Source: Niastella koreensis GR20-10
GTDB taxonomy: Bacteria > Bacteroidota > Bacteroidia > Chitinophagales > Chitinophagaceae
Direction of reading: 5' to 3'
NCBI RefSeq assembly: GCF_000246855.1
Contig: NC_016609.1
Coordinates: forward strand, 8,444,744 to 8,508,743
Length of the DNA: 64,000 nucleotides
Position 1 is the first letter of the stretch; each line of letters starts with the position of its first letter. The notes under the pieces are model-generated. The model searched no databases. It was given only the letters and a program-made list of their open reading frames with translations, and had not been told where the DNA came from. The position numbers were made by a program, and so were the translations under genes. Positions 37,456 through 40,241 of this stretch are shown here, piece by piece.

Positions 37456-38250
37456 ATGAAAGCAAACCGACCACTCGTCTTCCTGCTGCTTATAATTGTT
37501 AGTTTTCCGCTGAGAGCCGGGGATGGCTTTTGTGACATTCGTAACTCCGCTTTTAATGCTGGCGAGCAGATAACTTTGAAAGTATTCTATACAGTAGTGG
37601 GCGCCTATTTGGGGGCAGGTGAGGCTACCTTTAATACCACGCTTGAAAGAGTAAATGGTAAGCCTGTTTATCATATTGTAGGTGATGGCAAAAGCTATCC
37701 TTTCTACGATAACTTTTTTAAGGTCCGCGATAAATATGAAACCTACATAGATACTGCCACCCTGCAGCCATACCGCTTTATTCGTAATATCTATGAAGGC
37801 GGATATAAGAAATTTGAGAATGTAACCTTTAATAAAACCACCAACTCTGCCGTAACCAACCAGGGGGTATATAAAGTGCCTGAATGTGTACAGGATGTGC
37901 TGAGTGCCGTATATTATTCCCGCAACATTGATTTTGGCAAATTAAAGGTGAACGATAAGATCAATTTCTCCCTATTCCTTGATAATGAGGTATATGAAAT
38001 GTATATCCGGTACCTGGGCAAGGAAACCATTAAAACTAAATATGGGAAGTTCCGTGCAATAAAATTCAAACCGTTGCTCATTAAAGGCACCATGTTTGAA
38101 GGTGGGGAGAAAATGACGGTTTGGGTAAGTGACGACAGAAACCATATTCCCGTTCGCATCGAAAGCCCCATTTCGGTTGGCAGCGTAAAGATCGATATGA
38201 TCAGCTACCGCAACCTGCGCTATCCCCTGACTTCTCTCGTAAGCCTGTAA
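37456..38250 (+). CDS. DUF3108 domain periplasmic protein
   Basis: 264 residues with a signal peptide (LVFLLLIIVSFPLRAG). The mature chain is beta-rich and matches DUF3108: FNAGEQITLKVFYTVVGAYLG at the start, VPECVQDVLSAVYYSRN in the middle, KFRAIKFKPLLIKGTMF and MTVWVSDDRNHIPVRIES near the end. Homologues are common in Bacteroidota and of unknown function, perhaps envelope-related. It is 53 bases after the UPF0104 gene. Confidence 0.9.
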   Translation: MKANRPLVFLLLIIVSFPLRAGDGFCDIRNSAFNAGEQITLKVFYTVVGAYLGAGEATFNTTLERVNGKPVYHIVGDGKSYPFYDNFFKVRDKYETYIDTATLQPYRFIRNIYEGGYKKFENVTFNKTTNSAVTNQGVYKVPECVQDVLSAVYYSRNIDFGKLKVNDKINFSLFLDNEVYEMYIRYLGKETIKTKYGKFRAIKFKPLLIKGTMFEGGEKMTVWVSDDRNHIPVRIESPISVGSVKIDMISYRNLRYPLTSLVSL

Positions 38251-38423
38251 TCAGGTTTTCTTTTATAAAAATCATTAAATCAAAGAGCTGTCACTGCTGA
38301 TCGGCATGCCATTCAAGCCGCTCTTCCTGTTTGGCATTAAGCGAACCTCATCAACAACAACAATACAAAAGTACAATCAGAATAGACCCGATCCCGGAAA
38401 ATGGAATGGGCTTCGCCCAAACA

Positions 38424-38538
38424 TGGGACGAGCTTCGGAGAAATCTGGGACGAATAACATGCGCTATAGGAAGCAGCCGTCTTTTCCGGGACGAAGCTTA
38501 AATAAAACTGGGACGAACCACAACAATACCTGGGACGA
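38424..38538 (+). repeat. Phased array of five GGGACGA boxes
   Basis: TGGGACGA (once CGGGACGA) at 38424, 38446, 38487, 38509 and 38531. Distances are 22, 41, 22 and 22 bases, close to two or four helical turns, so all boxes face nearly the same side of the helix. The bases between boxes are not conserved. Confidence 0.85.
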
Positions 38539-38591
38539 ACGACAATTGTAAAGCAGGAACTGCCGTAAAAAAGTATAAAAAATGGCTAAAC

Positions 38592-38675
38592 CATGTGTCA
38601 ACCATGTGTGAAACATGTGTGCTTCATTGGTGAAGTATGCAATTTGACACAAGGTTCACACATGCTCCACACATG
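38592..38675. repeat. Helically phased CATGTGT boxes, three direct and two inverted
   Basis: CATGTGT at 38592, 38603 and 38614 with an exact 11-bp period; its complement ACACATG at 38658 and 38669, again 11 bp apart. A small hairpin CTTCA-TTGG-TGAAG lies at 38622-38635 between the two groups. The outer boxes extend to ACCATGTGT and ACACATGGT. Confidence 0.9.
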
Positions 38676-38959
38676 GTATACCCTATTTAAGATCCAGCTT
38701 CACAAAAGAACGGGCACCTGAAAATCTTCATTATCGAAAATGTTGCAAAAATCGACAACTGCAGGAATTTTCGAAATGTGAAATGATCCTCACATCGGTT
38801 TTCAATCGCGCAATAACTACACGGAGACAGAAATTTAAAAATGGTCGATTTATGGATTTTGAAAAATCAGGCACATCAAAATCTTTAAAAACCAAAAAAT
38901 GCCGGTTTTTGGATAATGGGACCGGATTTTGCTAACATATGTTTGTATTAGTTAAAAAT

Positions 38960-39028
38960 ATCATGTATTTGCCATGATAAGTAATGATCAACCAAAACGA
39001 CAAATACGACTATAGCGACAAATACGAC
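38960..39028. repeat. Hairpin plus CGACAAATACGAC direct repeat
   Basis: TATCATG and CATGATA around a 7-base loop (38960-38980), then CGACAAATACGAC at 38998-39010 and again at 39016-39028 (period 18), ending in the palindrome GACATGTC. No gene found around it. Confidence 0.75.
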
Positions 39029-39112
39029 ATGTCATATTTTTTCGCATATACTTCAATATTTGATAACGGTAACCATTATGGACAACCTAATTTTTGAACG
39101 CTGGTAGTGATG

Positions 39113-39400
39113 GAAACGGCAAACGGTAAACATGAAAGGCAGTAGGCGCCCGATAGTGATCGGGATTCAGTAGGCAATGGGAATACTGCTGTAAGCTCCA
39201 AGCCACAAGCTGCAAGCTGCAAGCCAAAAGCAGATACACTTCCAGGTTTTGGCTTTAGCCTTTAACCTTTAGGCTTTTACCGGTATTCTGTATTCCTTTA
39301 TCAACTCAGTCAACCTTATCAACGCTGTCAACTCCCCCGTCAACCCGTCAACATGTTAACCGGTCAACCTGTGACCTTTATCAATTCTATCAACTTTTAG
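39113..39400 (-). repeat. Composite dispersed repeat, copy C (inverted)
   Basis: Inverted relative to copies A and B. It holds the conserved module at 39149-39306 and then an array of at least eight GTCAAC/ATCAAC words up to about 39392, ending at the stop of the metallo-hydrolase gene. Words CGGCAAACGG and GTAAACATGAAA precede it. Confidence 0.92.
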
Positions 39401-39401
39401 A

Positions 39402-40241
39402 TTACAATTCTTCTAACTTAAACAAATCTTTATGCCTTACCCCTTTCTCCGTTTGTTGTAAAGAACAACATTCATTTACCGGGTCGTGCTCAAAAAATAA
39501 AATGTAATTGTTGGCTATGGCTTCGGTAAGGAATTGCTTTTTTTCAAGCAGTGTAGTTAATGGAAACATGTCGTAGGCCATCACGTAAGGAATGGGCAGG
39601 TGAGCAACTGCCGGCAACAGATCGGCTGCATATACAATGGTTTGTCCTTTATAGCTGATCTGGGGCAGCATCATGGCTTCGGTATGGCCATAGGCAAACC
39701 GTACTTTCATGGTATCGGAAAAATCGATGCCATCAGTAGGTTCAACAAATTTTAATTGTCCGCTTTCCTGGATGGGTAAAATATTTTCTTTTAAGAAGCT
39801 GGCCTTCTCGCGGTCGTTGGGAACGGTAGCCGCTTCCCAATGCCGTAAGTTGCTCCAGTAAGTGGCGTTTTTAAAAGCAGGAAGCAGTTTATTGCCCGAA
39901 CGAACGATGCTGCCGCCGCAGTGATCAAAATGAAGGTGCGTGAGAAATACATCAGTTATATCATCGGGCATAAAGCCATATTTTGCCAGCGACTTGTTTA
40001 ATGTATCATCGCCGTTCAAATAGTAGTGGCCCAGGAATTTGGCATCCTGTTTATCGCCAATACCATTATCAATTAATATCAGCCGGTTTTCTTCCTGTAT
40101 AAGCAGGCTGCGCATGGCCCAGTTGCACAGGTTGTTGTCATCGGCCGGGTTCAGTTTATTCCAGATCGATTTGGGAACAACGCCAAACATAGCACCACCA
40201 TCTAATCTAAAATAACCGGTATTAATTGAATAGAGATTCAT
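39402..40241 (-). CDS. MBL-fold metallo-hydrolase
   Basis: 279 residues with the zinc-binding signature HLHFDHCGG, further ligands in GHTEAM and VYAADLLP, and a His near the end (FFEHDP). The layout (IDNGIGDKQDAKF, a downstream DTMKVRFAYGHTEAMMLP) resembles the lactonase/quorum-quenching-like and AttM-like subgroups, but the family has many activities and I do not assign a substrate. Its 3' end abuts the GTCAAC array of repeat C. Confidence 0.92.
   Translation of the reverse strand: MNLYSINTGYFRLDGGAMFGVVPKSIWNKLNPADDNNLCNWAMRSLLIQEENRLILIDNGIGDKQDAKFLGHYYLNGDDTLNKSLAKYGFMPDDITDVFLTHLHFDHCGGSIVRSGNKLLPAFKNATYWSNLRHWEAATVPNDREKASFLKENILPIQESGQLKFVEPTDGIDFSDTMKVRFAYGHTEAMMLPQISYKGQTIVYAADLLPAVAHLPIPYVMAYDMFPLTTLLEKKQFLTEAIANNYILFFEHDPVNECCSLQQTEKGVRHKDLFKLEEL

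Follow-up and report, generated by a model that had tools for sequence, protein, structure and literature searches.

Several described kinds of bacterial repeat and operator resemble the element considered here, a cassette that includes helically phased CATGTGT boxes and lies in a spacer between two convergent genes of the soil bacterium Niastella koreensis GR20-10. The boxes are found in a stretch of 64,000 nucleotides (NC_016609.1, positions 8,444,744 to 8,508,743; hereafter the window) of a host genome that consists of a single contig of 9,033,684 bp. The nearest published kind encountered would be BrickBuilt, a miniature inverted-repeat transposable element (MITE) of Porphyromonas gingivalis, which is intergenic, occurs in 19 copies and contains 23-nt tandem direct repeats (PMC4596501). 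It has promoters in its leader and tail segments, contiguous repeats in variable number and terminal inverted repeats (PMC4596501). The cassette resembles BrickBuilt in its host phylum, the Bacteroidetes, in its dispersed, intergenic and multi-copy occurrence (30 loci in five genomes), in its direct repeats at about two helical turns and in carrying promoters, predicted ones in its case. It differs, on a comparison by description only, in a spacing that is fixed relative to the -7 box and in an added 11-bp inverted array.

LytTR sites consist of 9-bp direct repeats separated by 11–13 bp and located just upstream of the -35 element; their spacing is conserved, their sequence only poorly so (PMC6193735). 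Like the LytTR promoters of the LRS type, the cassette has direct repeats about 20–22 bp apart upstream of a promoter and adjoins a LytTR gene; its second set of boxes, termed B, shows a 22-bp period (9 + 13) and begins at about -42 to -48. Unlike those promoters, it carries up to six boxes in two triplets rather than one pair, its box sequence is unlike the listed ones, and cassettes also occur in a genome (G005) in which no ortholog of this LytTR gene was found. The cognate LytTR gene was not found wherever the sites occur, G004, with A arrays, being the other case.

Three further systems share single traits with the cassette. BldC forms a head-to-tail cooperative filament on direct repeats that are spaced by about one helical turn and vary in number (PMC5859096); it could provide a working model for the 11-bp array, termed A, rather than a class to which that array would belong, and its sites, unlike the A array, are AT-rich and of a different sequence. 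Repetitive extragenic palindromic (REP) elements with GTAG or CGTC tags measure 20–40 bp, with stems of 5–13 bp (PMC3733652). They are likewise dispersed extragenic palindromes, whereas the A array is a 97-bp series of 11-bp units, often accompanied by a promoter grid, and falls outside that size range. TAACTGA heptamer repeats, mostly found just upstream of start codons in their main species and proposed to have a translational role (PMC4679880), are also intergenic heptamer direct repeats, some of them in Bacteroidetes, but the heptamer is different. No description of the cassette family was found in the open-licence literature, and the cassette is more likely a regulatory repeat not yet described than a partition site. 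Slightly more probably than not, the CATGTGT boxes would mark the far upstream end of a promoter cassette that is dispersed in the genome and bound cooperatively by one or two regulators.

The phased arrays and the putative promoter grid

The features of the cassette in the window are as follows.

38291 to 38365, minus strand: block 1, with no gene after it in the window copy (alignments with LytTR loci)
38366 to 38373, minus strand: -7 box of a leftward promoter, TACTTTTG, of the Bacteroidetes form TAnnTTTG (grid scan and published consensus)
38403 to 38409, plus strand: B box 1, degenerate GGAATGG, grid offset 37 (looser box rule; more than one mismatch)
38425 to 38431, plus strand: B box 2, GGGACGA, grid offset 59 (lag scan, grid scan)
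38447 to 38453, plus strand: B box 3, GGGACGA, grid offset 81 (lag scan, grid scan)
38488 to 38494, plus strand: B box 4, GGGACGA, grid offset 122 (lag scan, grid scan)
38510 to 38516, plus strand: B box 5, GGGACGA, grid offset 144 (lag scan, grid scan)
38532 to 38538, plus strand: B box 6, GGGACGA, grid offset 166 (lag scan, grid scan)
38591 to 38634, plus strand: left arm of the A array, four 11-bp units, CCATGTGTCAA, CCATGTGTGAA, ACATGTGTGCT and TCATTGGTGAA (unit alignment)
38592, 38603 and 38614, plus strand: direct CATGTGT boxes at exact 11-bp steps
38635 to 38643, no strand: centre of the A array, 9 bp (unit alignment)
38644 to 38676, minus strand: right arm of the A array, three inverted 11-bp units, TTGACACAAGG, TTCACACATGC and TCCACACATGG (unit alignment)
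38647, minus strand: inverted CATGTGT box with one mismatch, absent from the earlier note
38658 and 38669, minus strand: inverted CATGTGT boxes, exactly 11 bp apart
38677 to 38687, minus strand: position of the fourth right unit, eroded in the window copy (TATACCCTATT; comparison with other loci)

An earlier note on this DNA, made from the letters alone, had described the three direct and two inverted boxes with their 11-bp steps, and this description is confirmed. The heptamer CATGTGT itself is not enriched in the 64-kb window (8 found, 8.2 expected). In the whole genome, however, the pattern CATGTGT-N(0-30)-CATGTGT gave 15 matches, confined to five loci and with every step being 11 or 22 bp, and its reversed control gave none; it is the phasing that is enriched. 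The search of relatives advised in that note found exact 11-bp-spaced pairs in 5 of 10 genomes of the genus, with zero control matches in all ten. When two mismatches were permitted the pattern became less clean, with 46 matches against 26 in the control.

A self-match scan of the window at lags 4 to 30 gave at least 24/33 at lag 11 solely at 38566-38634, and at lag 22 solely at 38398-38453 and 38485-38546; lags 7, 8, 14 and 28 likewise exceed 25/33 at some window positions. The 22-bp-phased GGGACGA array at 38403-38538, part of the same cassette as the CATGTGT boxes, had been overlooked in the earlier note.

Across loci, the B boxes follow the sequence GGGACGR and number up to six, 22 bp apart, in two triplets separated by 41–42 bp. 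In 27 of 29 arrays the octamer CAAANNTA, TAnnTTTG when read on the opposite strand, lies to the left of the first B box at a distance of 37 or 38 bp. L266 is the 28th array, with the octamer at 38 bp and a weak first box that had been skipped under the initial rule, and L188 of G004 is the only one of the 29 without the octamer at the grid distance; in the same loci the octamer has a density of 0.0004 per base. The 29 arrays were chosen by the authors, 18 through the A array, ten through the B pattern (L256 also having an A array) and one as the LytTR locus of G003; four B-pattern places without a retrieved locus were omitted, and the box rule for this count allowed up to 3 mismatches per pair. 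As 18 of the 29 arrays were reached through the A array, these were not selected for their B spacing.

In the housekeeping promoter of Bacteroidetes, TAnnTTTG forms the -7 box and occupies -12 to -5 (PMC9723704), which would place the first B box near -45 (about -42 to -48). The grid is carried by 28 cassettes in seven genomes (G000, G003, G005, G006, G007, G008 and G009), where boxes with at most one mismatch recur at offsets 37/38 (23 of 28), 59-61, 81-83, 122-124, 144-146 and 165-167, the full set of six not being present in every cassette. The window holds 46 octamers resembling a -7 box, and just the one at 38366 carries the grid (at least two grid boxes); the transcription start would be at about 38361 on the minus strand. 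G007 and G004 each have a reversed grid promoter of five boxes as well, in the spacers between the genes for the DUF3108 protein and the metallo-beta-lactamase-fold protein, the same pair that flanks the cassette in the window; these two spacers were not used to define the grid, though box-like sequence had previously been seen there by eye. The earlier note had judged promoter control unlikely between convergent genes, an argument that does not hold, since the spacer itself contains a leftward promoter element whose distance from the arrays is constant. Several cassettes share a common leader with GTTCTTTGACAT or near forms of it, which may resemble a boxA antitermination signal.

The complete A array comprises four 11-bp units of the CCATGTGTSAA type, a 9-bp centre and four inverted 11-bp units, 97 bp in total. 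Paired boxes define 30 A loci (five in G000, three in G004, three in G006, nine in G007 and ten in G009), and a profile search of the loci returned the same 30 together with a diverged copy in G008, giving 31 A arrays. The 97 alignment columns contain no internal gap at the 30 loci from five genomes of the genus; the window row alone stops early, at the edge of the extracted slice. Conservation of box and gap is 0.96/0.82, 1.00/0.86, 0.97/0.70 and 0.84/0.72 in units L1 to L4 of the left arm, and 0.99/0.97, 0.93/0.82, 0.76/0.78 and 0.77/0.82 in units R1 to R4 of the right arm, with 0.64 in the centre. The comparison of boxes with spacers suggested in the earlier note is thus positive for the left arm, R1 and R2, whose boxes are kept over the 4-bp gaps, and not for R3 and R4. 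A and B arrays have the same relative orientation at 18 of the 19 loci that contain both, the exception being one G009 locus (L202 and L256).

Beyond the genus, a 21-base pattern of the array was searched in genome contigs and found in 21 stretches (17 Niastella, two Flavihumibacter, one Paraflavitalea and one Pedobacter), a search from which the genome of the window was perhaps excluded. In the Flavihumibacter, Paraflavitalea and Pedobacter arrays the 11-bp unit is identical or almost identical, but its number differs. Window positions 38306-38700 had no match in plasmid and phage records at E 1e-5, nor did the 21-base pattern in viral contigs.

Some variants were seen by eye. In Pedobacter panaciterrae (the L229:5048 region) an 11-bp array and a nearly perfect inverted copy are flanked by TTCTTCTTC...GAAGAAGAA, the array lying apparently directly after a stop codon. 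Other 11-bp-phased arrays with different units (e.g., GAGGACCCAWW) are found near B arrays that have no CATGTGT array, at L240, L150 and other B-array loci of G005 and G007. At L190 and L196 (G006 and G007) the A array lies between apparently the same two genes, judged by their first residues and length, in opposite orientation relative to them.

The LytTR locus and the origin of the window copy

A search with the left flank of the A array revealed one further copy in the same genome, at 8697292-8697582, adjoining the A array there; every candidate was scored in this search. Among 147 other genomes, it matched at full length in G006, G009 and G007, without most of the A array in G003, in two pieces in G008 and through the array part only in G004 and G082; at most four candidates per genome were scored, and these counts are therefore lower bounds. 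At these loci the cassette occupies the upstream region of a gene for a stand-alone LytTR-domain protein (PF04397, E 1.3e-18), a gene with an ortholog in six of the ten genomes (G000, G003, G006, G007, G008 and G009). In all of these except G003, where a different gene takes its place, the other side of the cassette is occupied by a divergent gene encoding a protein of about 190 aa, without any Pfam or NCBIfam match at E 0.001.

Window positions 38306-38664 (38291-38677 for G007) align at 72–79% with the LytTR locus of G000, G006, G009 and G007. Between these four orthologs, identity is 0.89 in block 1, 0.80 and 0.77 in the B arrays and 0.84 in the A array, as against 0.49, 0.49 and 0.61 in the spacers and 0.56 on the LytTR side. 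The window copy reaches 0.78 in block 1, 0.82 and 0.75 in the B arrays, 0.75 in the A array and 0.53, 0.56 and 0.65 in the spacers.

Block 1 is the best conserved part of the spacer at the LytTR locus, with identity still at 0.88–0.90 in G003 and G008. It is conserved there in six species, downstream of the leftward promoter, and forms the leader of the ~190-aa gene in five of them. By eye, block 1 (L140:6455-6600; window 38291-38365) can form nested stems. It is possibly a regulatory RNA.

No remnant of the LytTR gene or of its ~190-aa neighbour was found in the window (best E 3.6). Window positions 38291-38690 found nothing better than E 0.2 in the DUF3108–metallo-beta-lactamase spacers of other species, which were compared complete for G001, G002, G004, G005 and G009, from the DUF3108 end for G003, and over the 1.5 kb next to the metallo-beta-lactamase gene for G006, G007 and G008. 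Since the cassette was not found in these spacers, the window copy would be a lineage-specific duplicate. It most likely derives from the stretch preceding the LytTR gene, carries neither of the genes there, and would represent an orphan promoter directed at the end of DUF3108. For the earlier note, which had tied function to retention of the boxes beside the same genes in close relatives, the outcome is mixed: relatives did not show the cassette in this spacer, but its boxes are conserved elsewhere.

Proposed function and competing explanations

Along the plus strand, the cassette has first a leader, then a leftward -7 box, next the B boxes (at most six, grouped in two triplets) and last the inverted A array. 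One or two regulators could bind the boxes cooperatively on a single face of the helix. The B triplets, at about -42 to -177, would then activate or gate the promoter, and the A array, at about -230 and beyond in the window copy, would extend or close the complex. For the B boxes, the leading candidate binder, although unproven, would be the stand-alone LytTR-domain protein whose gene lies next to what is presumed to be the ancestral copy. The cassette may have multiplied within species like a non-autonomous mobile repeat, and the window copy would fire, if at all, antisense into DUF3108.

Several results point in this direction. The higher conservation of arrays than spacers, the exact length at 30 loci and the absence of covariation suggest that the element functions as DNA. 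The spacing of one or two helical turns, combined with the preference for arrays over spacers, the lack of covariation and the fixed distance to the -7 box, points to proteins lying side by side on a single face of the DNA upstream of RNA polymerase. The same-face cooperative binding put forward in the earlier note is supported in part by these features, with the reservation that the boxes of R3 and R4 are not favoured.

A number of observations weigh against the promoter cassette as proposed. In addition to the outer right units, whose boxes are no better kept than their gaps, a -33 element is not evident by eye, and the first B box of the window itself is degenerate. The copies share ancestry, so that 28 of 29 are not independent events and the statistics count sites rather than such events. 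A crude rule for the nearest downstream open reading frame (ORF) makes it sense for 16 of the 28 cassettes and antisense for 12. To the right of the A array the window copy shows an identity of 0.26, where its homology ends. G003 keeps the LytTR gene with an A array decayed to 0.38 (the B arrays there have 0.74–0.77), and in G008 the second B array is down to 0.35 and the A array has diverged (0.60). Eleven of the 31 A arrays lack an adjoining B array or a promoter at fixed distance, which makes the A array separable and its part in transcription putative. Finally, G005 (8 B-pair matches) and G004 (three A arrays) show no ortholog of this LytTR gene, and in four outgroup genomes with A arrays the best LytTR matches have 35–39% identity. 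LytTR as the sole binder is not upheld by these genomes.

An ordinary non-autonomous mobile repeat, MITE or REP-like, in which the arrays would be mere ends or filler and the box conservation a product of recent copying, is an unlikely explanation. In its favour, the element is dispersed and intergenic, with 3–10 A arrays per carrying genome and matches that lie between larger ORFs, two of the 31 overlapping 108-aa ORFs of doubtful status. Gene contexts are mixed over the 31 loci: seven are convergent, 14 co-directional, nine divergent (five of them LytTR loci) and one undetermined. Centre variants seen by eye are common to 6 of 9 copies in G007 and about 6 of 10 in G009, and this sharing within species indicates that copies multiplied or were homogenised there; the absence of the cassette from the same spacer of relatives would also fit. 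Some A copies show, by eye, an outer TAAACC...GGTTTA, and no empty site with a duplication was resolved. However, a comparison of orthologous LytTR loci, which does not call for recent copying, still finds the arrays better conserved than the spacers, and the promoter grid is common to seven genomes.

It has also to be considered that the A array alone could be the operator of a rightward LytTR promoter, the window copy being a functionless relic. This seems quite doubtful, even though the array ends about 66–113 bp before the LytTR start in five species and the window copy has lost unit R4 and drifted in block 1: in the eleven A-only copies, neither side has a TAnnTTTG whose distance is constant.

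A structured RNA or RNA gene, with the inverted array forming a long hairpin in a transcript, is improbable; the earlier note had suggested an unrecognised RNA gene. The window copy folds strongly (z score of -4.2 as RNA), the small hairpin CTTCATTGGTGAAG reported in that note does fold in it, a promoter is directed into the spacer, and block 1 is highly conserved downstream of the promoter. The A array, however, lies upstream of the promoter and outside the predicted transcript. In the 44-pair helix, 71.9% of cells are paired compared with 71.6% in shuffles, the covariation score was reached in 72 of 500 shuffles, and no pair of the small hairpin covaries above shuffles in the aligned copies. 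A test for compensatory changes on 30 sequences gave five measures, each reached by 54 to 146 of 500 shuffles. Rfam at gathering thresholds gave 0 matches in the window, and two chance-level ones (E 5.3 and 8) in the LytTR locus (361 bases). The hairpin as a conserved feature was rejected, RNAalifold on the same alignment yielding 13 pairs without a double change in any of them.

Binding sites of a chromosome-organising or partition protein, the other suggestion of the earlier note, are very improbable: helical phasing would fit, as would the location of the five host-genome copies relative to the ORF read as dnaA (-1.27 to +1.18 Mb), but in G007, with dnaA at 1.96 Mb of contig C1 (2.75 Mb), only one of nine copies is on that contig, 1.69 Mb off, no copy is on the dnaA contig in G004 (3), G006 (3) and G009 (10), a weaker point as these assemblies are fragmented, exact paired boxes occur in only 5 of 10 genus genomes, and most arrays are tied to the promoter grid.

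Surrounding sequence and wider meaning

The genes on both sides of the spacer are convergent, as the earlier note had stated:

37456 to 38250, plus strand: gene for a DUF3108 protein, the left neighbour, directed into the spacer (ORF; PF11306, E 3.7e-52)
39402 to 40241, minus strand: gene for a metallo-beta-lactamase-fold protein, the right neighbour, directed into the spacer (PF00753, E 3.4e-14)

Between the cassette and the right-hand gene, window positions 38995-39076 contain four CGAC boxes at steps of about 9 bp (AACGACAAATACGACTATAGCGACAAATACGACA), with TAACGGTAACC about 35 bases further. This stretch, a conserved element flanked by convergent genes, aligned in the DUF3108–metallo-beta-lactamase spacer of nine of the ten genus genomes and is similar by eye in the tenth (G003). 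Dispersed repeats (AAGCTGCAAG and GTCAAC-type arrays) occupy 39103-39397. The query 38676-39401 had at least 53 matches in its own genome, with 40 of 309 candidates scored, all except the self-match inside 39103-39397.

A bolder, rather speculative extension of the promoter cassette would be a genus-wide system built on a portable promoter that carries as many as six operator boxes at fixed helical positions, often with an A array upstream, and that is copied about the chromosome and fires outward irrespective of gene direction. One multimeric regulator would then control many orphan and antisense transcripts, and the 11-bp unit may change between species with the architecture remaining constant.

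Promoter-carrying repeats are already known; a dispersed promoter with an operator grid that stays fixed across species would offer a clean test of cooperative, helical-phase activation. The cassette also warns that a spacer between convergent genes is not necessarily free of promoters. Furthermore, it suggests that a regulator could gain targets by copying an ancestral promoter instead of evolving its sites.
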